This document shows, one piece after another, positions 13,852 to 61,635 of a DNA stretch of 64,000 nucleotides; position 1 is the stretch's first letter; every line of letters begins with the position of its first letter. The translations under genes and the position numbers were made by a program. Source of the DNA: Subtercola frigoramans (GTDB lineage: Bacteria; Actinomycetota; Actinomycetes; Actinomycetales; Microbacteriaceae); contig NZ_JAFBBU010000001.1 in assembly GCF_016907385.1 (NCBI RefSeq), positions 1,612,001-1,676,000 of the forward strand, in the 5' to 3' direction. A model generated the notes under the pieces. That model ran no database searches and was not told where the DNA came from. It saw only the letters and a program-made list of their open reading frames with translations.

Positions 13852-13859
13852 CGTAGCCT

Positions 13860-15293: not shown

Positions 15294-15303
15294 ATCTCAC
15301 CTC

Positions 15304-15319
15304 TTTACTAAGTAGTAAA
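15304..15319. promoter_or_regulatory. palindromic operator upstream of XRE/nucleotidyltransferase pair
   Basis: TTTACTA (15304-15310) and TAGTAAA (15313-15319) form a perfect 7-base inverted repeat with a 2-base centre, ten bases upstream of the XRE start and next to its ribosome site. It contains CTAAGTAGTA, also present in the yefM operator (13861-13870). Confidence 0.55.
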
Positions 15320-15443
15320 AGTGTAGCGGAGCAATGCCATCGCGAAATCGAATGTCTCGAAGATGTTGCCACGTGCAGAAGGTGCGGCTGAAGCGCGAAA
15401 GGAACGGTAGCCTTCGATCCCAATGCTGGTGCGGCAGCGCCGC

Positions 15444-15518
15444 TGGTGGCCCCACGCAGATTCGAACTGCGGCCCCTGCCTCCGGAGGGCAGTGCTCTAT
15501 CCCCTGAGCTATGGGGCC
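15444..15518 (-). tRNA. tRNA-Arg (anticodon CCG)
   Basis: The minus strand folds into a complete cloverleaf: acceptor GGCCCCA (5' end 15518) pairing with TGGGGCC, D-arm GCTC/GAGC, anticodon stem CTGCC/GGCAG around the loop CTCCGGA (U33, anticodon CCG reading CGG), a 4-base variable loop, T-arm CGCAG-TTCGAAT-CTGCG, discriminator A and an encoded CCA end (15446-15444). The 3' end points toward the accessory region on the left. Confidence 0.95.
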
Positions 15519-15582
15519 AGGAGTGCGGTGTCTAGGCTATCACCGAGAAATGGGCGGTGCGATTCGTGGCAGGATCGAGAGT

Positions 15583-16377: not shown

Positions 16378-16398
16378 CTACTCCGCTCCTCTCTTTGC

Positions 16399-16461
16399 GA
16401 TCGACTTTCCCGAAACTGTCGGGACGCGCCGCAGCCATCGACAGTTTCGGGAAAGTCGATC
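16399..16461. repeat. perfect 23-base inverted repeat upstream of argS
   Basis: Arms 16399-16421 and 16439-16461 are perfect reverse complements (23 of 23, starting GATCGACTTTCCCG), separated by a 17-base GC-rich loop. There is no T-run, so it is not a textbook intrinsic terminator. It lies after the transglutaminase stop (16377) and 20 bases before the argS start (16482). Confidence 0.9.
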
Positions 16462-16481
16462 AGGCGCGTTCGGTAGAGTTG

Positions 16482-18215: not shown

Positions 18216-18317
18216 CCGTCTGACACGGGCGGGGATTCACAAACCGTACAGCGAACTCCCAGTGGGAATGCAGCAGCTCCCGGCGTGAGTGCAGCGGTTC
18301 ACCGCCAGACTGAAGAA

Positions 18318-19049
18318 ATGAAGAGACGAAACCGGGTCATCGCCATCGTGGTGGCCGCAGCCGTACTTTTCGGAGGGATTGTCGTCGTGGCAGATTTCGG
18401 GCTGAAAGCCTTCGCCGAGGGCCAGATTCGCTCAGCGATCGTGAAGAACCTCCCCTCGAACGTGACGGGTGACGTCTCGGTGCAGATCGGTGGAGGCTCG
18501 TTCCTCGCGCAGTACGCCTCCGGGTCGTTCAGTGAGGTGACGCTCAACAGCGACAACCTCACGGTGAACGGTGTGCCGCTGAAGGCGCACGTGGTGGCCC
18601 ACGATGTGTCGACCGACCAGACGAAACCGATTCCCCGGGCATCCGCCACCCTCACCCTCGACCAGACGGCGGTCAACTCGTTCCTGAGCATTCCCGGGTC
18701 GAATGAGATCGTGCTGGCCGACGGAACCGTTCGCTACCAGGGGTCGTTCCAGCTCTTCGGGCTCACCCTCGGCTACGACGCGACGGCGACCGCGGCACCT
18801 GTCGGCGGTACCGTTCAGCTGACTCCCACGGGCGCCACGCTCTCGGCCGGATCGGCCTCGCTCGACGTCGGCGGCGCGTTGAAGACCATCGTCTCGAAGC
18901 CCATCTCGATCTGCGTGGCCCAGTACCTGCCGAAATCGATGCAGGTCACGTCGATCACTCCGTCTGCTGGCTTCGTCGTCGTCGACCTCAGCGCCACCGA
19001 CCTGGTGCTGACGGAGGATGCCCTCAAACAGACCGGCTCGTGCGACTGA
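18318..19049 (+). CDS. DUF2993 (LmeA-like) lipid-binding membrane-anchored protein
   Basis: 243 residues from the ATG at 18318 (MKRRNRV); a GTG at 18285 is an alternative. One N-terminal anchor (VIAIVVAAAVLFGGIVVVADFGL) precedes a DUF2993 domain recognisable by AEGQIRSAI, GDVSVQIGGGSFLAQYASGSFSEVTLNSDNL and repeated beta strands (VPLKAHVVAHDVS). DUF2993 includes mycobacterial LmeA, a phosphoinositide-binding envelope protein linked to lipomannan synthesis. It lies between argS and lysA; no functional link is evident. Confidence 0.78.
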   Translation: MKRRNRVIAIVVAAAVLFGGIVVVADFGLKAFAEGQIRSAIVKNLPSNVTGDVSVQIGGGSFLAQYASGSFSEVTLNSDNLTVNGVPLKAHVVAHDVSTDQTKPIPRASATLTLDQTAVNSFLSIPGSNEIVLADGTVRYQGSFQLFGLTLGYDATATAAPVGGTVQLTPTGATLSAGSASLDVGGALKTIVSKPISICVAQYLPKSMQVTSITPSAGFVVVDLSATDLVLTEDALKQTGSCD

Positions 19050-19095
19050 CGGTTCTGCGCTGACGGCCAGGGCTGACGGCAACAGCCGATAGCAA

Positions 19096-19440
19096 TCACG
19101 GTTTCGGCTGGTCTGACACCTTCACCGCGATGTCGTACGCGCCTCCCTTGATGCCTGAGACTGTGACGGCCGCGTCGTAGTGCTGGTCGGGTGAGTCGGC
19201 GCCGACGACATCGCAATGCACGACCGCCGACTCGGTCAGGTCGATGTCTTTGCTCCCGCAATCGACTGTCGTGCTGAGCCCACTCTGTTTGTCGAGTGAG
19301 GTCTTGACATTCTTCGCGAAGTCAGCCGACGACACCGACGGGTTCACTGAGATCGAGCCCGAGCAGGCCGTGAGGCCGAGAGCGGCGCTTGCTGCGAGCA
19401 GAGCGGTGAGAACAATCCGGTTCGAGTTGATGATGCGCAT
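19096..19440 (-). CDS. DUF4333 lipoprotein
   Basis: 114 residues with a lipoprotein signal (basic start, hydrophobic core ALLAASAALG, lipobox LTAC; Cys26 lipidated). The rest fits DUF4333: ISVNPSVSSADFAKNVKTSLDKQSG, VDCGSKDIDL, AVVHCDVVGADSPDQHYDAAVTVSGIKG. Two further Cys (DCG, HCD) may form a disulfide outside the cell. A good ggaggt site precedes the ATG. It is divergent from lysA; the 207-base gap would hold both promoters. Confidence 0.87.
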   Translation of the reverse strand: MRIINSNRIVLTALLAASAALGLTACSGSISVNPSVSSADFAKNVKTSLDKQSGLSTTVDCGSKDIDLTESAVVHCDVVGADSPDQHYDAAVTVSGIKGGAYDIAVKVSDQPKP

Positions 19441-19647
19441 GAGAGACCTCCATAAGTGACAAATGCTTAGGCAAGCATAGAGGAATACTCACTAGCGTGT
19501 CGCCTCGGGTCGCCCCCCGGTCACTCACGATCGCGCCGATGTCGGGTAGGATTTTCGCTGTCGACGGCTTCAGGAACCAATCCGGGTTCGCTCGCCCTTC
19601 CAATCTGCGAATCCGCCCGTGGTCGCTCTCCTCCAAAGGTCAATCCG

Positions 19648-21168
19648 ATGTCTGCCAACCCGCTCGCACCGCCGTGGCTCGCCGTGCCAGACGATGCCAA
19701 TGACGTCGCCAGCGCAGTCTGGTCAGTGAACTCCCGGCGCACCGACGAGGGTGAACTGTCCATCGGGGGAGTCACGGCTTCGGCCCTGGCCGAGCAATTC
19801 GGCACTCCTGTCTACGTGGTCGATGAAGCCGATGCACGGTCTCGGGCACGCGGGCTCCGTGAAGCGTTCGAGCGAGAGTTCGCCCGAATCGGCACCGACG
19901 TCACCATCTACTACGCAGGCAAGGCCTTCCTCTGTTCCGCCGTAGGCGAATGGATGATCTCCGAAGGCCTCAGCATCGATGTCTGCAGCGCGGGCGAGTT
20001 CGCGGTCGCGCTGGCCGCTGGCGTCGACCCGGCCCACGTCGGCTATCACGGCAACAACAAGTCGTTCGCCGAAATCGACAGCGCTGTCGAGTATGGAGTC
20101 GGCGCGATCGTGATCGACAGTGAGATCGAGATCGAACGCGTCGCCGCCGCGGCAGTCGCGCACGGCAGAATCCAGTCCGTACGTCTTCGGGTGAACAGTG
20201 GAGTCCACGCGCACACCCACGATTTTCTCGCCACCGCCCACGAAGACCAGAAGTTCGGAGTCTCGTTGGCCGACGCGCCAAGGCTCGTGGCGACGATCCG
20301 GTCACACCCCGAACTTCGGTTCCTCGGGCTCCACTGCCACATCGGCTCTCAGATCTTCGGTTCGGGCGGCTTCTCCGAGTCGGCGGCCCGGCTCCTGGCC
20401 GTACACGCTGAGCTCCTGGCCGGGGGAGAGATCCCCGAGCTCAACCTCGGCGGCGGCTTCGGGATCGCCTATACGACTGCAGACGATCCGACTACGGTCG
20501 GTGAACTTGCCGCCCAGATCGCCGACATCGTCGGGGCCGAATGCGGGCGCCTGAAGATCGAGGTGCCGCACCTTGCTTTCGAGCCAGGTCGCGTCATCAT
20601 CGGCCCCTCGACGGCGACGCTCTACACAGTTGGCACAGTCAAGCCCGTCGTCGTGACAGTCGGCGCAGACACCGAAGTCGCCGAGGGCGTTGCCGAGATT
20701 GCTCCAGACGACGTGAGTTCGGCCACGGCCATACGCACCTACGTGAGCGTCGACGGCGGCATGAGCGACAACGCCAGGCCCGCCCTCTACGGCGCGGACT
20801 ACAGCGTTCGCCTAGCCAACAGGCAATCCGACGCCGATCCTGCCCTGGTGCGGGTTGCTGGAAAGCACTGTGAGAGCGGCGACATCGTGGTGTACTCCGA
20901 CTACCTCCCGGGCGACGTCACCCCCGGCGACCTGCTCGCGGTGCCAGCCACCGGCGCATACTGCTGGTCGTTGTCGAGCAACTACAACTACCTGGGCAGG
21001 CCCCCGGTCGTCGCAGTCGTCGACGGCTCTGCCCGGCTCATCATGCGCGGTGAGACCGTCGATGATCTCCTGGCACGCGACCCGGGAATAGCGCGGGGCA
21101 CGCGCAAAGCGAAGACGGTCGCCGAGCATCCGCCCGTCTTTTCCCACACCTCCGAGAAAGCATCATGA
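19648..21168 (+). CDS. lysA: diaminopimelate decarboxylase
   Basis: 506 residues. PLP enzyme that makes L-lysine from meso-diaminopimelate. Family marks: YYAGKAFLC (PLP Lys92), LHCHIGSQ, LNLGGGFGIAY (phosphate-binding Gly), EPGR, and near the end HCESGDIVVYSDYLP with the Cys-Glu that acts from the other subunit, then YNYLGRPPVV. An N-terminal extension of about 30 residues is common in actinobacteria. The last four bases overlap hom (ATGA), so the aspartate-family genes are coupled. Supplies lysine in a genome that also carries a putative lysine-activating synthetase at 57358-61455. Confidence 0.96.
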   Translation: MSANPLAPPWLAVPDDANDVASAVWSVNSRRTDEGELSIGGVTASALAEQFGTPVYVVDEADARSRARGLREAFEREFARIGTDVTIYYAGKAFLCSAVGEWMISEGLSIDVCSAGEFAVALAAGVDPAHVGYHGNNKSFAEIDSAVEYGVGAIVIDSEIEIERVAAAAVAHGRIQSVRLRVNSGVHAHTHDFLATAHEDQKFGVSLADAPRLVATIRSHPELRFLGLHCHIGSQIFGSGGFSESAARLLAVHAELLAGGEIPELNLGGGFGIAYTTADDPTTVGELAAQIADIVGAECGRLKIEVPHLAFEPGRVIIGPSTATLYTVGTVKPVVVTVGADTEVAEGVAEIAPDDVSSATAIRTYVSVDGGMSDNARPALYGADYSVRLANRQSDADPALVRVAGKHCESGDIVVYSDYLPGDVTPGDLLAVPATGAYCWSLSSNYNYLGRPPVVAVVDGSARLIMRGETVDDLLARDPGIARGTRKAKTVAEHPPVFSHTSEKAS

Positions 21169-22526
21169 TCGAATACCGCAACCTCAAGATCGCCCTGCTC
21201 GGAGCGGGCAGCGTCGGTTCACGCGTGGCGCAGCTGCTGCTCGAGCACGGCGACGAACTCGCTTCCCGGGTCGGAGCCGGCCTCGAGCTCGTCGGGATCG
21301 CCGTTCGCGATGTCGACGCACAGCGAGACGTGGAACTGCCACAAGAGCTGTACACGACTGATGCGGAGTCTCTGATCCTCTCGGCCGACATCGTGATCGA
21401 GCTGATGGGCGGGATCGAGCCGGCGCGCACGTACATCCTGCAGGCGCTGCACTCTGGGGCAGACGTCGTCACCGGCAACAAGGCGCTGCTCGCTCTGCAC
21501 GGTACCGAACTGTTCGAGGCGGCGGAGCAGGTGGGTGCGCAGCTGTACTACGAGGCTGCCGCAGGCGGGGCGATCCCGATCATCCGGCCGCTTCGCGACA
21601 GTCTTGCGGGTGACCGGGTGAAGCGGATTCTCGGGATCGTGAACGGCACGACCAACTTCATTCTCGACCGGATGGATGTCGAAGGAGACAGCCTGGAGTC
21701 GGCGCTCGCCATTGCGACAGAGCTCGGGTACGCAGAGTCTGACCCTACGGCTGACATCGAAGGTTACGATGCCGCGCAGAAAGCCGCGATCCTCGCACGC
21801 CTGGCGTTTCACAGCGCTGTGCCGGTCGAGGCCGTGCACCGGGAGGGCATCACGGGTGTGACTCCCGCTCTCGTAGAGCAGGCACGCCGCTCGGGATACG
21901 TGGTCAAGCTGCTCGCCATCTGCGAGCGGGTCACCGACCCTCTCACGGGTGAAGAGGGAATCTCTGCGCGGGTGCACCCGGCGCTGGTCTCCCGCCTCCA
22001 CCCCCTCGCTGCTGTGCACGGCGCGAAGAACGCCGTCTTCGTCGAGGCAGAGGCCGCCGGAGACCTGATGTTCTACGGTGCCGGCGCGGGCGGGTTGGAG
22101 ACAGCATCCGCAGTGCTCGGCGACCTGGTTTCGGCTGCACGCCGTCATGTCGCGGGCGGCCCGGGCGTTGCAGAATCGTTGACAGCGCACCTGCCGTTTG
22201 TTGAGATCGGCAAAGTGCTGACCCGGTACCAGATCACGCTCGAAGTCGTCGACGAACCGGGAGTCCTGGCGAGGATCGCGGGATTGTTCAGCGAGCACGA
22301 TGTGTCTGTCGAAGCCGTGCAGCAGTCCGTCGGTTCGCGCCGCGACGGCAGCGTCGACGGCACAGGCCCGCTCGCCGGCGTACCGGGTGCCGGCCCGCTC
22401 ACCGCTACCCTTGTCATTGTGACCCACGAGTCCACCGAGGCCGCGCTGTCTGCCACGGTCGACGATTTGGCCACCCACGCCGCTGTCACCAGCGTGCAGT
22501 CCGTTATGAGAGTTGAAGGAAACTAG
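21165..22526 (+). CDS. hom: homoserine dehydrogenase
   Basis: 453 residues. Reduces aspartate semialdehyde to homoserine. N-terminal Rossmann motif ALLGAGSVGSRV, then TGNKALLA, YEAAAGGAIPIIRPLRDSL and VNGTTNFILDRM, the catalytic-domain signature with the substrate-binding segment ELGYAESDPTADIEGYDAAQK. The C-terminal ACT domain begins at about residue 355 (YQITLEVVDEPGVLARIAGLFSEHDVSVEAVQQ), as expected for threonine feedback control. The start overlaps lysA by four bases and the stop overlaps thrC by one. Confidence 0.97.
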   Translation: MIEYRNLKIALLGAGSVGSRVAQLLLEHGDELASRVGAGLELVGIAVRDVDAQRDVELPQELYTTDAESLILSADIVIELMGGIEPARTYILQALHSGADVVTGNKALLALHGTELFEAAEQVGAQLYYEAAAGGAIPIIRPLRDSLAGDRVKRILGIVNGTTNFILDRMDVEGDSLESALAIATELGYAESDPTADIEGYDAAQKAAILARLAFHSAVPVEAVHREGITGVTPALVEQARRSGYVVKLLAICERVTDPLTGEEGISARVHPALVSRLHPLAAVHGAKNAVFVEAEAAGDLMFYGAGAGGLETASAVLGDLVSAARRHVAGGPGVAESLTAHLPFVEIGKVLTRYQITLEVVDEPGVLARIAGLFSEHDVSVEAVQQSVGSRRDGSVDGTGPLAGVPGAGPLTATLVIVTHESTEAALSATVDDLATHAAVTSVQSVMRVEGN

Positions 22527-23632
22527 TGTCTTCGAACAGTAACCGCATCCCGTCCCGTCAGTGGAGGGGCGTGTTGCACGAGTACGCCGACCGCCTCAAC
22601 ATCACAGCGGCGACGCCGATCATCACGCTCGGCGAGGGAGGCACGCCCCTCATCCCTGCTCCGGCACTCTCCGCCCGCACGGGTGCGAAGGTCTGGGTCA
22701 AGTTCGAGGGCATGAACCCGACCGGCTCGTTCAAGGACCGCGGCATGACGATGGCGATCTCGAAGGCCGTCGAGCACGGCGCGAAGGCCGTCATCTGTGC
22801 CTCGACCGGCAACACTTCTGCCTCGGCTGCGGCCTACGCCACCCACGCGGGCATCACGGCCGCCGTGCTCGTGCCCGAAGGCAAGATCGCCATGGGCAAA
22901 CTGAGCCAGGCCATCGCGCACGACGCTGAACTGCTTCAGGTGCAGGGCAACTTCGACGACTGCCTCGACATCGCCCGCGAGCTCGCTGCCAACTACCCCG
23001 TTCACCTCGTGAACTCGGTGAATCCCGACCGCATCGAAGGCCAGAAGACTGCAGCGTTCGAGGTCGTCGAGGTCTTGCAGGATGCGCCGGACTTCCACAT
23101 CGTGCCCGTCGGCAACGCGGGCAACTACACCGCCTACTTCCGCGGGTACTCCGAAGAGCTCGAGCGCGGTGCCACCACGAAGCTGCCGCGTATGTTCGGC
23201 TTCCAGGCCGCGGGCAGCGCTCCCATCGTCGTGGGTCACGTCGTGAAGCACCCCGAAACCATCGCCAGCGCGATCCGCATCGGCAACCCGGCCTCCTGGA
23301 GCCTGGCGATCGACGCACGCGAGAAGAGTGACGGGTACTTCGGTGCCATCTCCGACGCGCACATCCTCGAAGCCCACCGCATCCTGTCGGCAGAGGTCGG
23401 CATCTTCGTCGAGCCGGCGTCGGCCATCAGCGTTGCCGGCCTGCTCGAGCGTGCAGAGGCCGGCATGATCCCTGCGGGTTCGACTGTCGTTCTGACGGTC
23501 ACCGGCCACGGCTTGAAAGACCCGCAGTGGGCCCTCCGCGCTGCCGACGGCAGCGACATCAAGCCCACCATCGTTCCGGTGGACGTACCCGAGATCGCCG
23601 GTGTGCTGGGTCTCTCCAAGGCCACCGCGTGA
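22526..23632 (+). CDS. thrC: threonine synthase
   Basis: 368 residues from a GTG sharing one base with the hom stop (TAGTG). Converts O-phosphohomoserine to threonine. PLP Lys70 lies in GMNPTGSFKDRGMT; the phosphate-binding loop is VPVGNAGNYTAYF; ASTGNTSASAAAYA is also typical. The length fits the short bacterial class. Continues the operon; its stop overlaps thrB by four bases (GTGA). Confidence 0.96.
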   Translation: MSSNSNRIPSRQWRGVLHEYADRLNITAATPIITLGEGGTPLIPAPALSARTGAKVWVKFEGMNPTGSFKDRGMTMAISKAVEHGAKAVICASTGNTSASAAAYATHAGITAAVLVPEGKIAMGKLSQAIAHDAELLQVQGNFDDCLDIARELAANYPVHLVNSVNPDRIEGQKTAAFEVVEVLQDAPDFHIVPVGNAGNYTAYFRGYSEELERGATTKLPRMFGFQAAGSAPIVVGHVVKHPETIASAIRIGNPASWSLAIDAREKSDGYFGAISDAHILEAHRILSAEVGIFVEPASAISVAGLLERAEAGMIPAGSTVVLTVTGHGLKDPQWALRAADGSDIKPTIVPVDVPEIAGVLGLSKATA

Positions 23633-24594
23633 CGGCCACGGCCGCTTCGGGCGCGCCGATCACTGACCTGTCTGGCAGGTCTGTCACTGTGCGGGTCCCC
23701 GCAACGTCGGCGAACCTCGGGCCTGGCTTCGACACTCTGGGGCTCTCGCTCTCGCTCTACGACGAACTCACGGTCGCCGTCCGTGACGCGCCCGGTGCGA
23801 CGGTGGATGTCCGGGGTGTCGGTGCAGGCGAAGTCCCCACAGACGAGACGAACCTCGTCGTCAAGGCGATCGCGCACACCTTCGCGGCCTACGGGCAGCC
23901 GATGCCCGGTCTCGACCTCATCGCCCGCAACGCGATCCCGCACGGCAGGGGCATGGGATCATCCGGTGCAGCCATCGTGAGCGGAATCATGGCGGCACAG
24001 GGCCTGCTCGAGGGTGTCGTGGAGATCGACGCGCTGGGACTCCTGGCACTCGCGACAGAGCTTGAAGGGCATCCGGACAACGTTGCACCGGCACTCTTCG
24101 GCGGACTCACGATCGCGTGGGTGACGCCAGAGGGCCCCCAGTTCAAGAAGCTGATGGTGCATCGTGGCGTTTCGCCGCTGGTGCTCGTGCCCCAGGCGAC
24201 CATGTCGACGGCGTTGGCACGCAGCCTTCAGCCGGCAACCGTGCCACACGAAGACGCCATCTTCAACGTCTCGCGCTCCACGCTGCTCATCGCAGCGCTG
24301 ATCCAGAGCCCCGAGCTGTTGTTCGCTGCGACAGAAGACAAGCTGCACCAGAGTTACCGTGCCGCAGCGATGCCAGAGACCGATCGGCTGATCCGCCTGC
24401 TGCGCGAGCAGGGATTCCCCGCCGTGGTTTCGGGCGCGGGCCCCAGCATTCTCGTGCTGTGCAGCGATCCGGGCCAGAGGCTCGCCGCGGCCGATTTGGT
24501 GGCTGTTGAAGCCACGACACCCTGGGACTCTCTTGTACTGGCAGTCGACTTCAAAGGTGCTACAGTGATATCGCATCCGGTCGACGCCGCATAG
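23629..24594 (+). CDS. thrB: homoserine kinase
   Basis: 321 residues from the GTG at 23629, which overlaps the thrC stop. Makes O-phosphohomoserine for ThrC. GHMP-kinase motifs: VPATSANLGPGFDTLGLSLSLYD (substrate), IPHGRGMGSSGAAIVSG (ATP-binding P-loop-like Gly/Ser motif) and the C-terminal VVSGAGPSILVL (motif 3). Last gene of lysA-hom-thrC-thrB; the three successive overlaps suggest strictly coordinated translation. Confidence 0.96.
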   Translation: MTATAASGAPITDLSGRSVTVRVPATSANLGPGFDTLGLSLSLYDELTVAVRDAPGATVDVRGVGAGEVPTDETNLVVKAIAHTFAAYGQPMPGLDLIARNAIPHGRGMGSSGAAIVSGIMAAQGLLEGVVEIDALGLLALATELEGHPDNVAPALFGGLTIAWVTPEGPQFKKLMVHRGVSPLVLVPQATMSTALARSLQPATVPHEDAIFNVSRSTLLIAALIQSPELLFAATEDKLHQSYRAAAMPETDRLIRLLREQGFPAVVSGAGPSILVLCSDPGQRLAAADLVAVEATTPWDSLVLAVDFKGATVISHPVDAA

Positions 24595-24712
24595 TTCTTG
24601 TGCTGCAGAACGTCCCGGTCGCACATCCTCCACATTACCGCTGACGCTTGTTGTGCCGTGAAGTGCCACGATCCGTAGCCTCCGCCCAACGCAAACAAGC
24701 GCGTACAGCTCT

Positions 24713-24738
24713 TCTGCCGCAACTCATAAGACGGCAGA
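24713..24738 (+). promoter_or_regulatory. leader hairpin before rho
   Basis: In the 162-base gap between thrB and rho, TCTGCCG (24713-24719) and CGGCAGA (24732-24738) pair as a 7-base stem whose 3' arm runs straight into the purine-rich ribosome site (AGAGGAAGGA). The upstream leader is C-rich and G-poor in places (for example around 24678-24700). rho is autoregulated in some bacteria; whether this leader does so is inference. Confidence 0.4.
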
Positions 24739-24756
24739 GGAAGGAAAATCACCTTA

Positions 24757-27315
24757 GTGACTGACATCAACATCCACGCTTCAAACGTGGAGTCTCGAAC
24801 AGATCTTGCGACCCTCAAGGTCTCAGAACTCCAGACGCTCGCCGCGGCCCTCGGAATCGCGGGTGCATCGAAGCTTCGAAAGGGCGACCTCGTGGCCGCC
24901 ATCACGAACGCCCAGCCGGGCAACACCGACACCTCCGTCGCCGCTTCACCGGATTCGGCCCCTGTGGTTGAGGTTCCGGAGTCGCCGGTCGTGGCAGAGC
25001 CGGTACCGGCGGAGCCTGAGGCCAGTGTGCCCGAGGCCCTCGTGCCTGAAACAGTTGAAGCTGACGGGCCCATCTCCGACACGCTCGAAGCACCTGCTGC
25101 ATTCGAGCCGCCTGCCGCGGCCGAAGCGCCCGTCGTTGCCGACTCCGCTGTCGCCGATACTTCCACCGCCGTGCAGGCACCCCGCCGCCGCGCTTCACGC
25201 CGTGTCACCACGGCCGAGCCGACAAGTGCGCCCGCCGTGGAATCTGCGCCCATCGGGCAGCAGCCGGTTGACGCTCCCGTCGCCGAGCCGCAGTCCGCCG
25301 TGGGCGCCACTGCAGGTCGAGGCCGCCGCTCGGCAGTGCAGCACGTGAACGCCTCTGCATCTGAGCACGCACCCCTGGTTCCCGCCGACGCGGGTACGAG
25401 CCCTGAGCTCGACACGAGCAGGCTCGACGCCGTGCTCGACGCGGCCATCGCCGCCCAAGACGGTGCTGCAGAATCCACCGACAACGCGGGCGCCGGCAAC
25501 GCAGGTGCCCCGCGCAACGAACGACAGGTGCGCACCCCCCGCCTCACCCGCGCGCAGCGTGCTGCCCAGGCCGCGCGTGACGCTGCCGCAGGCATCGACG
25601 GTGCTCCTGCCGTCGAACGGTCACGTACAGAGTCGATTCTTCCCGACCTTCCGATCGTCGGCGGTTCCGATACCGACAACTCTTCAGAGGGTTCTCGTTT
25701 CGAGGCCGAGGGCGACGAAAGCCGCGAGAACGGCGAAGGCCGGCAGAACAGCCGCAACCGTAACCGTCGTGACCGCAACGCCGACCGGAATGCTGATCGC
25801 AACCAGGCTGCCAATGGTTCTGCAGGTGCAGACAGGGCCGCGAACGACCGCAATGGCGCAGAGCGGAACGGTACCGAGCGCACGAACGCAGACCGTACGA
25901 ACAGCGATCGCCTCAACAACAACCAGCGGGGCGCGAACAACCAGCGCAACCAGCGTGATCGTAACGACCGCCAGGACGACGCGAGCTTCGACGAGCAGCA
26001 GCTCGACGAGCTGAACGATCGCCAGGGCCAGGGCCAGCAGAACCCCAACGACCGCAGTGCACGCAACCGGTACCGCGACCGCAAGCGTCGCGGCCAGGGT
26101 GGTCTTGACGACCTCGAGCCCGAGATCAGCGAGGACGACGTTCTCATCCCCGTCGCCGGTATCCTCGACATCCTCGACAACTACGCCTTTGTTCGCACCA
26201 GCGGGTACCTGCCAGGCAACAGCGACGTGTACGTCTCTCTCGGCCAGGTCAAGAAGTACAACCTGCGCAAGGGTGACGCTGTCGTCGGTTCGATCCGCCA
26301 GCCACGCGAAGGCGACAGCAATGGTCGCCAGAAGTACAACGCCATCGTCAAGGTGGAGTCGATCAATGGTCTTCCGATCGAAGAGGCTGCCAACCGCGTC
26401 GAGTTCTCGAAGCTGACTCCTCTGTACCCGCAGGAGCGTCTGCGCCTCGAGACCGAGCCCGGAAAGCTGACGCAGCGCATCATCGATCTGGTGGCCCCCA
26501 TCGGCAAGGGCCAGCGCGGACTCATCGTCGCGCCACCCAAGGCCGGCAAGACGATCGTCATGCAGCAGATCGCCAACGCGATCTCGACGAACAACCCCGA
26601 GGTTCACCTCATGGTCGTTCTGGTCGACGAGCGCCCCGAAGAAGTCACCGACATGCAGCGCACGGTCAAGGGTGAGGTCATCGCCTCCACCTTCGACAGG
26701 CCCGCTGAAGACCACACGATCGTCGCCGAACTCGCCATCGAGCGTGCAAAGCGCCTCGTAGAACTTGGTCACGACGTCGTCGTGCTGCTCGACTCGATCA
26801 CCCGCCTCGGCCGTGCCTACAACCTGGCTGCCCCGCCGTCAGGCCGTATTCTCTCCGGTGGCGTCGATGCTGCTGCCCTGTACCCGCCCAAGCGGTTCTT
26901 CGGTGCAGCCCGCAACATCGAGAACGGTGGCTCGCTCACCATCATCGCATCGGCTCTCGTCGAGACCGGTTCGAAGATGGATGAAGTGATCTTCGAGGAG
27001 TTCAAGGGCACCGGCAACATGGAGCTCCGCCTCTCTCGTCAGCTCGCTGACAAGCGCATCTTCCCTGCCGTCGATGTGAACGCATCCGGAACCCGCCGCG
27101 AAGAGCTCCTGATGGGCGTCGACGAGACGAAGATCACCTGGAAGCTCCGTCGTGCCCTCGCCGGCCTCGACCAGCAGCAGGCTCTCGAAATCGTTCTGGG
27201 TCGTCTGAAGGACACCACGAGCAACGTCGAGTTCTTGATGCAGGTGCAGAAGTCGATGCCGGCCGCAGCGGCTGTCAGCCACACCACCAACCACAACGGT
27301 CACAAAGAGGATTAG
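24757..27315 (+). CDS. rho: transcription termination factor Rho
   Basis: 852 residues from a GTG. Residues 1-50 form the Rho N-terminal (SAP-like) domain ([33 protein letters not shown]). A disordered insert of about 400 residues follows: Ala/Pro/Glu-rich first, then Asn/Arg/Asp-rich (runs such as [16 protein letters not shown]). The conserved core starts near residue 450 (cold-shock RNA-binding part [12 protein letters not shown]), with Walker A PPKAGKT at about 593, Walker [17 protein letters not shown] and the Q/R loops. It is a hexameric RNA helicase. The long insert is the actinobacterial type, here clearly longer than in E. coli Rho (419 residues). Confidence 0.97.
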
Positions 27316-52725: not shown

Positions 52726-54084
52726 TCACGCCAGTGTCGCGAAGCCGTCGTCGAGAACACCCAGGGCGTCTTCGAGCAGGGCGTCGCTGATCGTCAGGCT
52801 CGGCAGGAACCGCAGAACGTTTCCGTAGGTGCCTGCTGTGAGGAGGATGACCCCGTGCTGGGCTGCGTATGCCGCGAGGGCCGTGACCGCTGCCGGGTTG
52901 GGCTCTTTGGTGGTCTGGCCTGTTCCGGGCTGCACGAGCTCGATGGCGATCATCGCCCCTACCCCGCGGACCTCGCCGATGATGTCGTACTTCTTCTGCA
53001 GTTCGAGCAGGCCTGCAGAGAGCGTCTGCTCGACCCGGGTGGCTTCGGCCAGCAGACCGAGGCGTTCGATCTCGTCGAAGACGGCGATGGCCGCGGCCGT
53101 TGCGACGGGGTTTCCGCCGAAGGTGCCGCCGAGGCCACCGGGCAGGGCGGAATCCATGATCTCGGCGCGACCCGTGACGGCGGCGAGGGGGAGCCCGCCG
53201 GCGATGCCCTTGGCCGAGGTGATCATGTCGGGCACGAGGCCGAAGTGCTCGCTGGCGAAGTAGGCACCCGTTCGGGCCATGCCGCTCTGGATCTCGTCGG
53301 CGATGAACACGATGCCCTTCTCGGTGCACCAGGCCTGCAGGGTCGGCAGGAAGCCCTCCGCTGGGACGACGAAACCGCCTTCGCCCTGGATCGGCTCGAC
53401 GACGAGGCACGCGAGGTCATACGACCCCACGGTCTTCTCGAGGTAGTCGATCGTGCGGGTCGCCGCCTCGGCGCCCGAGAGACCGTCGTGGTAGGGGTAC
53501 GAGTTCGGAGCGCGGTACACGTCACCGGCGAAGGGCCCGAACCCGGTCGAGTAGGGGGCCGCCTTGAAGTTCATGGCCATCGTGAGGTTGGTGCGCCCGT
53601 GGTAGGCGTGCTCGAGAACGGCGACACCGACGCGGCGGGTGTGCTTGCGGGCGATCTTCACGGCGTTCTCGACGGCTTCTGCACCGGAGTTGGCGAGCAT
53701 CGTCTTCTTGGCGAAGTCGCCGGGGGTGTGCTCAGCGAGGAGCTCAGCGACTCGCACATACCCTTCGTACGGTGTGATGGTGAAGAGGGTGTGGGTGACG
53801 TCGTGGAGCTGGGCAGAAGCTGCCTCGACCACAGCCGCCTCGGTGTGGCCCACAGTGGTGACCCCGATGCCGGCTCCCATGTCGATGAACTGGTTGCCGT
53901 CGACATCGACGAGGATCGCGCCGTTGGCCCTGGCGATGTAGACGGGAAGCACCGACGAGACACCGGTCGGCACCACGGCCAGACGTCGAGCGTGCAGGGC
54001 ATCGGACTTCGGACCGGGGATCGCCGTGACGATCTTGCGCTCCTGGGAAACGGTGAACACTGAACTGCCAATGATGTCGGTCAT
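52726..54084 (-). CDS. gabT: 4-aminobutyrate aminotransferase
   Basis: 452 residues. Converts GABA and 2-oxoglutarate to succinate semialdehyde and glutamate. Class III marks: FIDMGAGIGVTTVGH, MLANSGAEAVENAVKIARKHTRR, VLEHAYHGRTNLTMAMNFKA, VEPIQGEGGFVVPAEGFL, GIVFIADEIQSGMARTG and the PLP lysine in MITSAKGIAGGLPLAAVTGRAEIMD. GABA is the end product of putrescine breakdown, so it closes the pathway begun by the Pot transporter, the aminotransferase and the FAD oxidase. The start is divergent from the osmC-like gene, 34 bases apart. Confidence 0.93.
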   Translation of the reverse strand: MTDIIGSSVFTVSQERKIVTAIPGPKSDALHARRLAVVPTGVSSVLPVYIARANGAILVDVDGNQFIDMGAGIGVTTVGHTEAAVVEAASAQLHDVTHTLFTITPYEGYVRVAELLAEHTPGDFAKKTMLANSGAEAVENAVKIARKHTRRVGVAVLEHAYHGRTNLTMAMNFKAAPYSTGFGPFAGDVYRAPNSYPYHDGLSGAEAATRTIDYLEKTVGSYDLACLVVEPIQGEGGFVVPAEGFLPTLQAWCTEKGIVFIADEIQSGMARTGAYFASEHFGLVPDMITSAKGIAGGLPLAAVTGRAEIMDSALPGGLGGTFGGNPVATAAAIAVFDEIERLGLLAEATRVEQTLSAGLLELQKKYDIIGEVRGVGAMIAIELVQPGTGQTTKEPNPAAVTALAAYAAQHGVILLTAGTYGNVLRFLPSLTISDALLEDALGVLDDGFATLA

Positions 54085-54587: not shown

Positions 54588-56000
54588 GTGACGTCACCGC
54601 ATCCCCTGCCTGCCTCAGGCCCAGCGCCTTCGTCCAGCCCGATGTCGAGCTACCAGCGGCGGATCCTGACCGTCGCTGTTCTGTCGTCGTTCATCGTGTT
54701 CCTCGACGGCACCGTCATCAACGTGGCGCTTCCCGCGATCTCCCGGGAACTCGGGGGAGGCCTCGCCGGCCAGCAGTGGGTCGTCGATGCCTACCTCATC
54801 TCGCTGACTGCCGTCATCCTGCTCGCGGGTTCGCTCTCCGATGCCTTCGGGCGGCGCCGCGTGATCTTCTGGGGGCTCATCGGGTTCGGCGCGGCCTCTG
54901 TGCTCTGCGCGGTGTCGGTGACGGATGCGATGCTGATCGTCTCCCGGGGCATCCAGGGAATCGCGGGGGCGTTGCTGGTACCGAGCTCGCTGGCGATCAT
55001 CGTGGCGAACTTCGATGGGCCGGCACGGGCGAAGGCGATCGGTCGCTGGACGGCGTGGACGAGCACAGCGTTTCTCGCCGGCCCTCTTCTGGGCGGCGTG
55101 TTGGTCGACCTGGTGTCGTGGAGGCTGGTGTTCGCGATCAACGTCATTCCGATCGCGGTGACCCTCCTTGCCCTGCGCCGCCTCGACCTCGAACCTCCCC
55201 GGGCCGTGAAGCCGGTGATCGACTATCGCGGGGCGGTGCTCGGCATCCTCGGCATCGGGTTGCCGGTCTTCGCCCTCATCGAACACGGCAGGCTGGGCTG
55301 GTCGAACCCGATCGTCTGGGGTGCGCTGGCGCTTGGCCTCGCCTCCTTCGGGCTCTTCCTCTGGAACGAGGCTGTGGCGAGCCACCCGATGCTTCCCCTC
55401 TCCTTGTTCCGGGTGCGCAACTTCTGGGTGGGCAATGTGGCCACCGCCTTCATCTACGCCGCGCTCTCGCTCGGCGGGTTTGCCCTCACCCTGTTCCTGC
55501 AGCAGGTTGCCGGCTATTCCGCCACCCAGGCCGGCCTGGCCTCGCTGCCGTCGACCGTGATCAGCATCTCGCTCGCGTCGCTGTTCGGCACACTTGCCGG
55601 TCGTTACGGTTCGCGCTGGTTCATGGCAGCAGGCCCGATCGTGGGAGCCGTGGGGTATCTGCTCCTCTCGCAGGTCACGGCTGAGGCAAACTACGTCAGC
55701 CAGGTTCTTCCCGGAACCGTCGTGTTCTCGCTCGGACTGGTGATGACGGTGGCTCCGCTCACAGCGGCGGTGCTGGGCTCGATCGACCCGGAGCGGGCAG
55801 GCATCGCGTCAGCCACCAACAACGCGGTCTCGCGCGTCGCGGGACTCGTCGCGACCGCTGCTGCGGCACTCATCATCGGCGATGCCCTCACGGTGGAAGG
55901 CTTCTCGCGCGCCGCGCTGGCCACGTCGGCACTGCTGGTGGTCGGCGGAATCGTCTCGCTGGTCGGTATCCAGAACGCGAAACGCAGCCAGCGAACCTAA
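54588..56000 (+). CDS. MFS drug-efflux transporter, DHA2 (14-helix) type
   Basis: 470 residues from a GTG. Opening helix RRILTVAVLSSFIVFLDGTVINVALPAI with the DHA2 motif D1 (LDxTVxNVALP), then WVVDAYLISLTAVILLAGSLSDAFGRRRV (motif A) and the motif-C-like GPLLGGVLVD. Fourteen hydrophobic segments can be counted. A proton-driven exporter of small toxic compounds; substrate unknown. Its TAA overlaps the convergent stop of the M1 peptidase gene by four bases. Confidence 0.9.
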   Translation: MTSPHPLPASGPAPSSSPMSSYQRRILTVAVLSSFIVFLDGTVINVALPAISRELGGGLAGQQWVVDAYLISLTAVILLAGSLSDAFGRRRVIFWGLIGFGAASVLCAVSVTDAMLIVSRGIQGIAGALLVPSSLAIIVANFDGPARAKAIGRWTAWTSTAFLAGPLLGGVLVDLVSWRLVFAINVIPIAVTLLALRRLDLEPPRAVKPVIDYRGAVLGILGIGLPVFALIEHGRLGWSNPIVWGALALGLASFGLFLWNEAVASHPMLPLSLFRVRNFWVGNVATAFIYAALSLGGFALTLFLQQVAGYSATQAGLASLPSTVISISLASLFGTLAGRYGSRWFMAAGPIVGAVGYLLLSQVTAEANYVSQVLPGTVVFSLGLVMTVAPLTAAVLGSIDPERAGIASATNNAVSRVAGLVATAAAALIIGDALTVEGFSRAALATSALLVVGGIVSLVGIQNAKRSQRT

Positions 56001-57358
56001 CGCGCCGTGCGTTTCGGCAGCTTCGGCAGGCTCGACTGGTCGAGCCAGGCCGCGAACAGGGAGCGCACGGGCACAGGGGAGTGTGTCTCGACCAGCGCGA
56101 TGAATTCGGGAGTGCTGACGTTGCCGTGGCGATGCGTCGCTGCCCACTCGCGCAGAATCGTGAAGAAGACATCGTCGCCGAGAGTGGTGCGAAGAGCGTG
56201 GAGTGTCAGGGCGCCGCGCTTGTAGACCCTGTCGTCGAACATCCGGGCGGAACCCGGGTCACCGATCACCAGGTCTTTGGGCAGGCGATTGATCTTGCTC
56301 CAGGCCTGGGCTGCTGAGCCGTCAGCGGTCAGCGAGCCCGACTCCTCCGCCCACAACCACTCGGCGTAACAGGCGAATCCCTCGTGCAGCCAGATGTCCC
56401 GCCACTGCGAGATGGTGAGGCTGTTGCCGAACCACTGGTGCGAGAGTTCGTGTGCGATCAGTCGTTCAGAGCCTCCGACGCCGTCGATGTGGTTACGCCC
56501 GAAGATCGCCAGACCCTGGGCCTCGAGGGGAATCTCGAGTTCATCATCGGTGACGACGACGGTGTAGTCCGAGAACGGGTACGGCCCGAATGAGCGCTCG
56601 AAGAGTGCCATCATCTGTGGCTGGTCCTCGAAGTCGGCGAGGGCGTTCGAGCGCAGGTCTTCGGGCAGCAGCACATACTGCAGTACTCCACTCTGGGAGA
56701 CCCCCATCGTCTCGTAGAGGCCGATCTGCACCGTCGCCAGGTACGTCGCCACGGGTTCCCGCGATTCGAATTCCCAGCGGGTGCGACTGGCCCGCTGCGT
56801 CCGCAGCACCAGTTCACCGTTGCAGAGCACGCGGTAGGCCGTCTCGGCCGAGAACGCGATCGAGTAGGTGGCCTTGTTCGATGGATGATCGTTGCAGGGG
56901 AACCACGAAGGGGCACCGCTCGGCTGACCGGCCACGATCACCCCGTCGGAGAGTTCTTCCCACCCGACCTCGCCCCACTGGCTGCGCACCGGCTTGGGGA
57001 GCCCTGCGTACTTGACGACGATGGTGAACTCTGCTCCATTGTCGAGAGGGAGAGCTGGGGTGATCACGAGTTTTCGGGCCGTCTGGATCACGTGGGTCGC
57101 CCGGGTTCCGTTGACGCTCACCTTGTTGGCAACGAGGCCGGCGAAGTCGAGGCTGAACCTGCTCAGCTTCTGGGTTGCACGAGCGGTGATCGTGGCCGTG
57201 GCGCTCAGCCTGTTGGAACTCACGCGATAGTCGCAGTCGAGGTCGTAGTGCAGCACGGTGTAACCGCCGTTGCCACTGGTGGGCAGGTACGGGTCGCCGA
57301 GCGAGCGTGTGCCCTCGGAGGCCAGCGCTGTCGATGTGGGCCGTGTCGAACGCGGCAT
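55997..57358 (-). CDS. M1-family zinc metallopeptidase (aminopeptidase N-like)
   Basis: 453 residues from the ATG at 57358, which shares one base with the stop of the synthetase gene (TGATG). An N-terminal beta-saddle domain (YDLDCDYRVSSNRLSATATI...) precedes the gluzincin core: LIAHELSHQWFGNSLT (HExxH near residue 302), then DIWLHEGFACYAEWLWAEES with the third-ligand Glu. Where aminopeptidase N has GAMEN this protein reads EIPLEAQGLAIFG, a variant of the LETQ type seen in many actinobacterial members. No signal peptide and no long C-terminal helical domain, so it is a short cytosolic-type enzyme. Coupled translation with a peptide-making synthetase suggests a product-processing or self-protection role. 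Confidence 0.9.
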   Translation of the reverse strand: MPRSTRPTSTALASEGTRSLGDPYLPTSGNGGYTVLHYDLDCDYRVSSNRLSATATITARATQKLSRFSLDFAGLVANKVSVNGTRATHVIQTARKLVITPALPLDNGAEFTIVVKYAGLPKPVRSQWGEVGWEELSDGVIVAGQPSGAPSWFPCNDHPSNKATYSIAFSAETAYRVLCNGELVLRTQRASRTRWEFESREPVATYLATVQIGLYETMGVSQSGVLQYVLLPEDLRSNALADFEDQPQMMALFERSFGPYPFSDYTVVVTDDELEIPLEAQGLAIFGRNHIDGVGGSERLIAHELSHQWFGNSLTISQWRDIWLHEGFACYAEWLWAEESGSLTADGSAAQAWSKINRLPKDLVIGDPGSARMFDDRVYKRGALTLHALRTTLGDDVFFTILREWAATHRHGNVSTPEFIALVETHSPVPVRSLFAAWLDQSSLPKLPKRTAR

Positions 57359-60300
57359 CAGGCTGGCGCCTCGGCTGAGTCGTCTGCCCACGGGGCAATC
57401 GGGTTCCCGGCCCACCGCGATCCGGCGGGCACGTGCTCTCCGCGCATGACGAGGGAGGCCGGCCCGACGGTCGCGTCTGCTCCGATGGAGGCGGCCGGCA
57501 GGATCACGCCGTGCGGACCCAGGGTGGCACCGTCTTCGAGGTCGACGGTGTCGAGGCTCATGACCCGGTCGTGAAAGAGGTGGGTCTGCACCACGCAGCC
57601 CCTGTTGACGGTGGACGCAGCGCCCAGGCTCACGAGGTCAGCCTCTGGCAGCCAGTAGGTCTCGACCCAGGCTCCGCGCCCGATCGTGGTGCCCAGGGAG
57701 CGGAGCCACACGGCCAGTGCGGGCGTGCCAGTGGCTGAGCCAGCGAACCACGGAGCAGCAACCATCTCTACAAAGGTATCCGACACTTCGTTGCGCCAGA
57801 CGAACGACGACCAGAGTGGATGCTCTTCCCGCCCGATTCTGCCCACCAGCGCCCACTTGGCGACCGTCGTCACCAGTGCGGCCACCGCTCCGGCGAGCAG
57901 CATCACCGCCCCCGAGAGCACGATCGCCCAGCCGATTCCAGCCGACGCGACAAGGTACTCCAGCAGCACGACGACGCCGAGCCCGAGCGCGACGCTGATC
58001 ATCACCGGCACGATGCGCCCGATCTCCCAGAGCGCACGCGCAATCCGGCGCCAGGCAGAGGGCTGGAAGGTGCGCGTCTCGTCGAATTCTGCGACCTGGC
58101 GCCGCAACCGCACCGGCGGGTTGCCGAGCCACGAGGAGCCGCTCTTCGCCTTCCGCGGCGTCGCAGAGAGCACGGCGACGAGGCCGTTGCGAGGCACCGT
58201 TCGCCCGGGGCCCGTCATGCCGCTGTTACCGAGGAAGGCGCGCTTGCCGACCCGGGCCTCGTCGATGCGGAGCCAGCCGCCTCCGAGCTCGTACGAGGCC
58301 ACCATGGTGTCGTCGGCGAGGAAGGCGTGGTCTCCGATCGTGGTCATCGCCGGCAGGAGCAGCACGGTGGAGGCTTCGACGTTCTTGCCGACCTTGGCCC
58401 CGAGCATCCGAAGCCAGACCGGCGTGAAGAGGCTCGCGTAGAACGGGAAGAGGATGGTGCGCGCAGCATCGAGCAGACGCTCCGTGGCCCAGACCTGCCA
58501 GCCGACCCGGGAGCGCACCGGATAGCTGCCCGGGCGAATTCCCAGGCCGAGCAGACGCGCGAAGACGACCGTGAGGCCCGCATAGACCACACCGGCGGCA
58601 AGGGTGGCCAGCGGGATCGCCGCCAGCGCGCGCAGAGCGGCGTCGCCGAGGGTGGGCAGGATGACCGTGGCCGGGGTGGTGATGACGGCGACTCCTGTAT
58701 CGGTGGTGAGTGGCGCCTGCCCCAGGCAGAGGAACACGCCCACGACGGCGCAGCCGGCAAGCACAGCGAATGCTGGCAGGAGCGAGAGCACGATCGAGCC
58801 GAGGGCGAAGGGCACGAGCCAGCGGGTGTTGCGGGGTGGGCGGAAATCCGGCCAGTTCGGTTTCGCCTTGCCGACGCGTTCGGCGGGGGAGCCGGCCCAG
58901 AGCTGCCCGCCCTGCACCCGCCCCGAAACGGCGGAGCCCGGTGCGATCTCGGCCCGGCGGCCGATGTGTGTTCCCGGCAGCAGTGTGCTTCGTGCACCGA
59001 CGGCCGAGTCCGCGTCGATGTGCACCGAACCGAGGCGCAGAATGTCGCCGTCGACCCAGTACCCGGCCAGGTCGACCTCGGGTTCGACGGATGCGCGGGC
59101 CCCGATCTTCAGCATGCCCGTGATCGGCGGGAGGGAGTGCAGGTCGACGCCCGGACCGATCTTCGCGCCGAGTGCCCTGGCGTAGGTGATGATCCAGGGG
59201 GCACCGGCGAGGTTCGTCGCCCCGACGAGGTTCGCGATCTGCTCTGCCAGCCAGAGACGCAGGTGCACGCTGCCTCCCCGCGGGTAGTTCCCGGGTTCCA
59301 AGCCAGCCAGCAGAGCCCTCGCGAAGACGACGGAGATCGCCATGCGGCCGAAGGGGGTGATCAGCAGCACGAAGCCGGCGAGAATCCACCACCACGACAC
59401 GGTCGGCGCCCACGCGAAGTCACCGAAGAGGGCCAGCACGTTGTTGGCGGCCAGAACATAGACCAGCCACCGCAGGCCCACGAGCACATAGAGCGGGATG
59501 CCCAGCAGCGTCTGCGCGACCTGGGTGCCGACCGGGGTCGGGCGCACCGTGCGTCGTTTGCGGGCGGTGGCCGGAGCCCGCGCATCGAGTTCGGTCGCCA
59601 GGGCACCGATTCGCGGGTGGTCGTAGATGTCGGCCACGGTTGTCTCCGGGAAACGCATCCGGATGCCCGACACCAGTTGGGCGGCCGAGAGGCTTCCCCC
59701 TCCGAACGCGAAGAAGTCGTCGTCAGGCCCTGTCACTGGTGCGCCGAGAATGGCCGTCCACTGCACAGCGAGCCAGGCTTCGGTGGCAGAGAGCGGTGGC
59801 CGGGCATCCGAATCGCCAGAGCCGGGGGTGCCGTCACGGCGGGTGCCGTCGCTGACCGCGAGTGAGGGTGTCGGCAACGGCCAGGGCAGCGCGGCCTTGT
59901 CTACCTTGCCGGAGGTACGGGTGGGGAGAGATTCAACGACGGCGAGCAATGGCACGAGTGCGGCCGGCAGCGTCTCGCGCAGAAGGTCGGAGGCGTGCTG
60001 GGTGCTGAAACCCGAGTCGGCTTCGGTCAGGGCGATGTACCCGACGAGGATCTGGTTTCCGGCCTGTGTTCGCTGCACCACTGCTGCGGCACCGGCAACT
60101 CCGGGCAGCGCGGCGACGGCAGCTTCGACCTCACCGAGCTCGATGCGGCGGCCACCGAGTTTGACCTGGTCGTCGGCGCGGCCCTGGAAGAGCAGCCCTT
60201 CGGTGCTGAAGAGCACGTTGTCGCCGCTGCGGTACGCGCGATCCCAGCCCAGAGTGGGCATCGGCGCATACTTCTCGCGATCTTTGGCTTCGTCGAGGTA

Positions 60301-61455
60301 GCGGGCGAGCCCGACGCCGCCGATGACGAGCTCGCCGATCTCGCCCTCGGCGACGGGTGTACCGGAGCCGTCGACCACCGCGAGGTCCCAGCCGTCGAGG
60401 GGCAGTCCGATGCGCACCGGGCCCGTTCCGTCGAGCAGCGCAGCACACGCCACAACGGTCGCCTCGGTCGGCCCGTAGGTGTTCCAGACCTCCCGCCCGT
60501 CGACGGCCAGCCGTGCAACGAGTTCGGGAGGGCAGGCTTCTCCGCCGAAGATGAGCAGGCGGACCAGTTCGAGCGACTCGAGCGGCCAGAGCGCGGCAAG
60601 AGTGGGCACGGTCGAGACGATGGTGATGCCGTGCGCGATCAGCCAGGGCCCCAGGTCGACGCCTGAGCGCACGAGTGAGCGGGGTGCCGGCACCAGGCAG
60701 GCCCCGTGGCGCCACGCCAGCCACATCTCCTCGCAGGAGGCGTCGAAGGCCACCGACAACCCGGCGAGCACCCGGTCACCCGGCCCGAGGGGGTCTGACT
60801 GCAGAAACAGGCGCGCCTCGGCGTCGACGAAGGCCGCCGCCGACCGGTGGGTCACGGCGACGCCCTTGGGCGTACCCGTGGAACCCGAGGTGAAGATGAT
60901 CCAGGCGTCATCGTCTGGCGTGGGGCCACCGACGACCGGCAAGGTGCCCGTCGGGCTGCCGAGGGTCGGCGCTTCGGTCTGAGGGGGTGACGATGCATCG
61001 GCGCTCGCGAGCTCGATCGATCCCGAGGCGCCGATCACCCCGACGACCTTCGCCTCGCCGAAGACCAGCTCGGCGCGCTCCTCGGGGTCGTCGGCATCGA
61101 CGGGAACGTAGCTGGCGCCGACGGCCAGGGTAGCCAGAATGGAGATGTAGAGCACCCGCGTTCCCGAGGGGATGCGGATTCCGACCCGGTCGCCGTGGCG
61201 CACCCCCGCCGTTGCGAGTCGCGCTGCGGCCGCGTTGACCTCCCTGAGGAGTTCCCGGTAGCTGAGCGTTCCCGTCGCGTCGGCGAGGGCAGAGGCCTGT
61301 GGATGCTCGGCGGCAGTCGAGCGCAGAACATCCATCAGCGTGCGTGGCTGCGGTGCGCGGCCGCCAGCCAGGAGCAGCCCGGGGAGGGTCGCAACGAGGT
61401 CGTCTGGGGGTGTGCTGCCGGGCATCCTGTTCGCATCCTGTTCTGTCTTCGCCAC
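57358..61455 (-). CDS. Pls/PosA-type membrane non-ribosomal peptide synthetase
   Basis: 1365 residues from the GTG at 61455 (an ATG at 61425 is possible). Residues about 40-520 are an adenylation domain: IIFTSGSTGTPKGVAVTH, FDASCEEMW, TYGPTEATVV, RTSGKVDK. A carrier domain follows with DDFFAFGGGSLSAAQLV (phosphopantetheine Ser near 585). The rest alternates pairs of membrane helices (six in all, first near 640-720) with three left-handed beta-helix hexapeptide-repeat domains, for example IGARASVEPEVDLAGYWVDG, VGKNVEASTVLLLPAMTTIGDH and LGAASTVNRGCVVQTHLFHDR. This is the layout of epsilon-poly-L-lysine synthetase, which elongates an isopeptide chain at the membrane without a usual condensation domain. 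Specificity residues read D-A-E-S-I-G-T-V-V-K, close to the lysine code. Confidence 0.92.
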   Translation of the reverse strand: MAKTEQDANRMPGSTPPDDLVATLPGLLLAGGRAPQPRTLMDVLRSTAAEHPQASALADATGTLSYRELLREVNAAAARLATAGVRHGDRVGIRIPSGTRVLYISILATLAVGASYVPVDADDPEERAELVFGEAKVVGVIGASGSIELASADASSPPQTEAPTLGSPTGTLPVVGGPTPDDDAWIIFTSGSTGTPKGVAVTHRSAAAFVDAEARLFLQSDPLGPGDRVLAGLSVAFDASCEEMWLAWRHGACLVPAPRSLVRSGVDLGPWLIAHGITIVSTVPTLAALWPLESLELVRLLIFGGEACPPELVARLAVDGREVWNTYGPTEATVVACAALLDGTGPVRIGLPLDGWDLAVVDGSGTPVAEGEIGELVIGGVGLARYLDEAKDREKYAPMPTLGWDRAYRSGDNVLFSTEGLLFQGRADDQVKLGGRRIELGEVEAAVAALPGVAGAAAVVQRTQAGNQILVGYIALTEADSGFSTQHASDLLRETLPAALVPLLAVVESLPTRTSGKVDKAALPWPLPTPSLAVSDGTRRDGTPGSGDSDARPPLSATEAWLAVQWTAILGAPVTGPDDDFFAFGGGSLSAAQLVSGIRMRFPETTVADIYDHPRIGALATELDARAPATARKRRTVRPTPVGTQVAQTLLGIPLYVLVGLRWLVYVLAANNVLALFGDFAWAPTVSWWWILAGFVLLITPFGRMAISVVFARALLAGLEPGNYPRGGSVHLRLWLAEQIANLVGATNLAGAPWIITYARALGAKIGPGVDLHSLPPITGMLKIGARASVEPEVDLAGYWVDGDILRLGSVHIDADSAVGARSTLLPGTHIGRRAEIAPGSAVSGRVQGGQLWAGSPAERVGKAKPNWPDFRPPRNTRWLVPFALGSIVLSLLPAFAVLAGCAVVGVFLCLGQAPLTTDTGVAVITTPATVILPTLGDAALRALAAIPLATLAAGVVYAGLTVVFARLLGLGIRPGSYPVRSRVGWQVWATERLLDAARTILFPFYASLFTPVWLRMLGAKVGKNVEASTVLLLPAMTTIGDHAFLADDTMVASYELGGGWLRIDEARVGKRAFLGNSGMTGPGRTVPRNGLVAVLSATPRKAKSGSSWLGNPPVRLRRQVAEFDETRTFQPSAWRRIARALWEIGRIVPVMISVALGLGVVVLLEYLVASAGIGWAIVLSGAVMLLAGAVAALVTTVAKWALVGRIGREEHPLWSSFVWRNEVSDTFVEMVAAPWFAGSATGTPALAVWLRSLGTTIGRGAWVETYWLPEADLVSLGAASTVNRGCVVQTHLFHDRVMSLDTVDLEDGATLGPHGVILPAASIGADATVGPASLVMRGEHVPAGSRWAGNPIAPWADDSAEAPA

Positions 61456-61635
61456 GGCTCGCCTGCAGGTGCATGAACCGAGTCGTGAGCGTGGCGTTCG
61501 GATTTTAGTGGTGCACGGTGACGCGGGGGTGAACGGCCACAGTCTAGAGGCCGCCCGGAAGTCCATGACGGACTTTCGGCGCGCGCCCTGTCGACTGCCT
61601 CGCGTATCATGGGGGTTTTGAACAGCTGAGGATGT

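Follow-up and report, generated by a model that had tools for sequence, protein, structure and literature searches.

An intact pls-type gene with the substrate code of epsilon-poly-L-lysine synthase and a coupled M1 peptidase gene in Subtercola frigoramans

We analysed a 64,000-nucleotide stretch of the Subtercola frigoramans genome (contig NZ_JAFBBU010000001.1, positions 1,612,001 to 1,676,000; hereafter the window) that carries a reverse-strand gene for a synthetase of the Pls/PosA family. The adenylation (A) domain of this protein has the same substrate code as the solved A domain of an epsilon-poly-L-lysine synthase, and its gene overlaps a downstream gene for an M1-family metallopeptidase. 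Judged on sequence, the gene is in all likelihood an intact orthologue of pls and an ordinary member of its family. Lysine as the substrate, and a lysine isopeptide polymer as the product, are well supported predictions. The finding is correct in substance and already known; its contribution is one more well-supported gene, outside Streptomyces, for a known antimicrobial-polymer pathway. The features of the locus, in the direction of transcription, are as follows.

57358..61455, minus strand: predicted Pls-type epsilon-poly-L-lysine synthetase, 1365 aa; GTG start, frame open to ATG 61566, ATG 61425 as an alternative
59869..61353, minus strand: adenylation domain; 65% identity to 7wew over 498 columns; code DAESIGTVV + K
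59593..59775, minus strand: carrier (thiolation, T) domain, FGGGSLSAAQL; expected phosphopantetheine serine S588
59311..59532, minus strand: membrane helix pair TM1-TM2 (hydropathy and structure model)
58828..59310, minus strand: first hexapeptide-repeat domain, C1 (Pfam, repeat pattern, model and Foldseek)
58546..58827, minus strand: membrane helix pair TM3-TM4 (hydropathy and structure model)
58015..58545, minus strand: second hexapeptide-repeat domain, C2 (repeat pattern and model)
57844..58014, minus strand: membrane helix pair TM5-TM6 (hydropathy and structure model)
57382..57843, minus strand: third hexapeptide-repeat domain, C3 (repeat pattern and model)
55997..57358, minus strand: M1-family metallopeptidase gene, 453 aa, PldII-like by position; HELSH and HEGFA motifs

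The synthetase gene and its substrate pocket

The reading frame of the synthetase (57358-61566, minus strand) is open with zero internal stops. It encodes 1365 aa if translated from GTG 61455 and 1402 aa if translated from ATG 61566. The closest protein, from Subtercola sp. PAMC28395 (P0002, 95% identical), begins MPNRMPGST, which favours a start at GTG 61455 or ATG 61425 over ATG 61566; the exact start codon is uncertain. TIGR02353, the NCBIfam model of the Pls/PosA family, matched the C-terminal half of the protein along its full profile (1-695 of 695) with 740 bits against a cut-off of 423.1 (2.7e-222), which places the synthetase in this family. It is the only protein of the S. frigoramans genome above that cut-off. 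Scans of the locus for promoter-like and terminator-like sites gave counts no higher than chance (0 versus 0.2 in shuffles and 2 versus 1.7, respectively).

The substrate code of the synthetase and of its relatives was read by gapped MAFFT alignment to the GrsA letters of 1amu. The nine positions equivalent to GrsA 235-331 were D, A, E, S, I, G, T, V and V, and K517 matched the conserved A10 lysine in the alignment with 7wew. An earlier reading of the window made from the letters and open reading frames alone (hereafter the sequence-only reading) had assigned these same letters by eye, and the residue-exact alignment returned them unchanged. An ungapped count from D235 read the last three positions as N, T and V. 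We discarded it, as the synthetase and GrsA differ by one residue in net length between GrsA positions 301 and 322, which shifts these three positions by one. The sequence-only reading had also proposed a comparison with a proven Pls. The solved A domain 7wew, given in the PDB listing as epsilon-poly-L-lysine synthase, carries the identical nine letters and the lysine, and is 65% identical to the S. frigoramans domain. We take the source species of 7wew to be Streptomyces albulus.

The nine letters recurred in every one of the 104 Pls loci whose core could be read, a count made up of 80 named loci (the best 80 of 586 relatives found), 22 other relatives, which may share genomes with the named set, and the S. 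frigoramans locus entered twice (L081 and L084). L082, L083 and L107-L113 stand outside this count, L107 because the pattern used did not find its A-domain core. Among 120 listed homologues, 118 shared the nine letters and two (P0074 and P0087) deviated by one letter each; being the best listed of at least 7503, these homologues lean towards close relatives.

The sequence-only reading had argued for lysine from an eight-of-ten likeness to the lysine code of the bacitracin module. We rejected this likeness as proof: it is not discriminating and counts as weak evidence, since the code of PosA, an ornithine enzyme of Acinetobacter baumannii, likewise came closest to that of a bacitracin lysine module (PMC10522769). 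The lysine substrate and the isopeptide polymer are supported on other grounds. Code position 2 is reported to be Ala in lysine synthetases, Met in PosA and Phe in diaminopropionate (Dap) and diaminobutyrate (Dab) synthetases, and is tied to the chain length of the substrate (PMC10522769). Ala at this position together with whole-code identity to 7wew therefore discriminates in favour of lysine. Collectively, these comparisons indicate that the predicted pocket is that of Pls itself, beyond the likeness to bacitracin.

Domain architecture and proposed mechanism

Pfam matched AMP-binding, AMP-binding_C, PP-binding and one Hexapep block on the synthetase. Hydropathy alone gave five C-terminal segments and one inside the A domain; the last segment is 65 residues long, leaving room for two helices. 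An AlphaFold2 model of residues 640-1365 (726 residues) was built from an alignment of 48 rows, comprising 46 of the 80 named loci, L107 and the S. frigoramans synthetase. The model (mean predicted local distance difference test score 90.2; predicted template modelling score 0.90) contained three pairs of long helices, six in total, and three stretches of short regular strands. When this C-terminal model was compared with the PDB using Foldseek, 79 matches were obtained at E <= 0.001. Hexapeptide acetyltransferases such as CysE made up most of the top matches among the 50 listed (best E 3.9e-06), with low TM-scores because the model has several domains. A loose pattern devised for this analysis detected 13 hexapeptide runs of at least two units, compared to a mean of 3.6 in 2000 shuffles. 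Nine of the 13 lay inside the three strand-rich stretches and four in or beside the membrane helices. TIGR02353, Pfam, the model and the repeat count thus bear out the domain order put forward in the sequence-only reading, namely an A domain, a carrier, six helices and three hexapeptide-repeat domains. This is the architecture of Pls and PosA: A and T domains, six membrane helices and three hexapeptide or acetyltransferase-like domains, without the usual condensation or thioesterase domain.

In the proposed mechanism, the A domain would activate L-lysine with ATP and load it onto the phosphopantetheine arm of the carrier. Condensation would fall to the three membrane-tethered hexapeptide-repeat domains, which would link each lysine through its carboxylate to the epsilon-amine of the following residue. 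Epsilon-poly-L-lysine (epsilon-PL) of a few tens of residues would be made at the membrane and released across it, and the M1 peptidase would cleave the polymer, either setting its chain length or protecting the producer. That a membrane Pls makes and exports epsilon-PL, with the coupled peptidase trimming or detoxifying the polymer, is in our view highly probable. The substrate, the type of bond, the export, the translational coupling and the role of the peptidase are each predicted here by analogy with named homologues.

The coupled peptidase gene, its conservation and the surrounding genes

The M1 gene lies directly downstream of pls, and its ATG and the pls stop overlap within the sequence TGATG (57360-57356); the gene had been overlooked in the sequence-only reading. 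The arrangement is that of the Pls operon, with a peptidase gene coupled to the synthetase gene, and the likeness to PldII is one of position. The best PDB matches of the M1 protein were zinc metalloprotease chains (6a8z and 6iff), followed by larger aminopeptidases, and the next M1 match in the S. frigoramans genome was only 26% identical. A pls-peptidase operon has been described for Streptomyces and Corynebacterium (PMC8117764). In S. albulus, pldII is reported to be translationally coupled to pls, and its repression led to longer polymer (PMC9223678). The M1 gene beside the synthetase gene is itself part of the evidence.

All 80 named loci have an M1 homologue on the same strand downstream of pls, as do 21 of the 22 other relatives; in the 22nd (L102) the sequence stretch ends with pls. 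The aligned M1 start lay at most about 160 bases from the pls stop in 75 of the 80 named loci, and 0.56-2.07 kb after pls in the other five (L012, L015, L020, L033 and L061). These five loci are from three Tsukamurella and two Williamsia, and in L061 and L033 possible M1 start codons occur 0.3-0.45 kb after pls. By script, 38 of the 80 were found to have a start codon between -8 and +1 bases relative to where the pls stop ends. No M1 gene was detected within the only ~1.5 kb of flank around the divergent L107, which was not used as a control. That the pair is so widespread and so tightly kept speaks for a genuine function of the peptidase, and its many natural versions lend themselves to comparisons of polymer length.

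Near-full-length Pls matches, which could be split into as many as three pieces of a single frame, were sought in the genomes of 60 relatives. Of the same-genus genomes 10 of 11 had such a match, as did 6 of 25 further Microbacteriaceae genomes and, at 59% identity or more, 6 of 23 genomes from the rest of the order. One further member, L107, was divergent (36% identity). The many weak matches in other genomes were read as probable other AMP-binding enzymes. The remaining same-genus genome (G006) had no Pls match above the level of these enzymes; its assembly is 88% complete and in 120 contigs, so a loss of pls is not shown.

The other neighbours of pls encode an MFS transporter, an OsmC-like protein, an FKBP-type isomerase and DXP reductoisomerase, and suggest no other product. 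Elsewhere in the window, the stretch 8390-15518 has a third-codon-position GC of about 0.58-0.68, compared to mostly 0.75-0.87 after 15.5 kb; low values also occur in some frames at 3-7 kb. The stretch ends at a tRNA-Arg (ccg) gene. Of the ten frames scanned in or beside the stretch, seven lacked a Pfam match, and its edge carries an AbiEii-like nucleotidyltransferase with a helix-turn-helix partner. Direct repeats of at least 18 bases were sought in 1-16000 and none was found. We regard 8390-15518 as a candidate genomic island that may carry a toxin-antitoxin-type pair. Genes at 16395-27315, all in one direction, encode arginyl-tRNA synthetase, a protein of the diaminopimelate/ornithine/arginine-decarboxylase family and Rho. 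The decarboxylase-family gene, about 36 kb from pls, is by its position presumably lysA of lysine synthesis.

Alternative readings and known systems

Synthetases of this family polymerise other basic amino acids, and the family model cannot tell those for Dab, Dap or beta-lysine, which have the same architecture (PMC8117764), apart from Pls. PosA, which makes delta-poly-L-ornithine, likewise has the same kind of architecture and, as described above, the same closest code match. Its code, however, is DMEHNGTVSK, from which the S. frigoramans synthetase differs at positions 2, 4, 5 and 9, with Ala rather than Met at position 2; replacing Met218 of PosA with Ala raised its efficiency with lysine nearly tenfold (PMC10522769). 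PosA is also only 36% identical to 7wew over the core, compared to 65% over the A domain here. These results make polymerisation of ornithine very improbable. Dab, Dap or beta-lysine as the substrate is, if anything, still less credible. The reported synthetases for Dap and Dab have Phe at position 2 and that for beta-lysine has the code DGESISVVNK, compared to DAESIGTVVK in S. frigoramans (PMC10522769). Neither this beta-lysine code nor an adjacent lysine 2,3-aminomutase gene was found, and a search of the 3.68-Mb genome for the KamA family (TIGR00238) gave zero matches, which counts against beta-lysine. No diaminobutyrate transaminase (Dat) scored above the family cut-off in the genome, where ten weaker aminotransferase matches were seen; Dap-forming genes were not searched for. 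The neighbouring aminotransferase at 52726-54084 exceeds the cut-off for gamma-aminobutyrate transaminase, and the coupled peptidase is the gene context of pls, not of Dab or Dap genes (PMC8117764).

Several points weigh against an epsilon-PL-producing Pls in S. frigoramans. The pls gene of Corynebacterium variabile made epsilon-PL when expressed in S. coelicolor, yet cultures of C. variabile, and C. glutamicum carrying the C. variabile gene, gave no detectable epsilon-PL (PMC8117764), so the native locus may be silent here as well. The PldII of S. albulus is reported to sit on the outside of the membrane (PMC9223678), whereas a hydrophobic segment was looked for on the M1 protein and none was seen. 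The comparison of the condensing domains covered uncharacterised relatives and the family model. A silent or relic locus that yields no polymer under natural conditions would be compatible with the enzyme being a Pls, and the C. variabile results favour such a reading. The frame, the carrier serine and the peptidase motif are all intact, and the near-full-length matches in 10 of 11 same-genus genomes suggest selection and argue against a relic. Overall, we consider a silent or relic locus unlikely. It is more doubtful still that the almost ubiquitous pls-peptidase pair serves a cell-surface or cold-niche role in this cold-adapted lineage, acting through a short, peptidase-trimmed oligo-lysine and not a secreted antibiotic-like polymer.

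A Pls of the known type remains our preferred reading, and the finding opens no new question. The sequence-only reading had presented the lysine call as its new part. This does not hold, because Pls with a lysine pocket has already been described for coryneform actinobacteria, Microbacterium among them (PMC8117764), and epsilon-polylysine-class (NAPAA) clusters are in print for Subtercola, detected by antiSMASH in S. endophyticus (PMC9287328) and conserved across five Subtercola genomes including PAMC28395 (PMC10303725). The S. frigoramans synthetase resembles S. albulus Pls in family, architecture, code, 65% A-domain identity and a peptidase gene coupled downstream. It differs in coming from another bacterial family, with the comparison made over the A domain (7wew) and the product in S. 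frigoramans predicted. With the Pls of C. variabile and other coryneforms it shares the architecture, the pls-peptidase operon and a lysine pocket reported as identical or highly similar, while those enzymes come from other genera (PMC8117764). The Subtercola NAPAA clusters belong to the genus of the nearest relatives, with a 95% identical protein in PAMC28395; they are reported as an antiSMASH class, and the portions of those reports available to us give neither residue code nor peptidase. PosA of A. baumannii shares the kind of architecture and the Asp, Glu, Gly, Thr, Val and Lys of the code, but has Met at position 2, ornithine as its substrate and, as described, a single-gene operon without a peptidase gene (PMC10522769).
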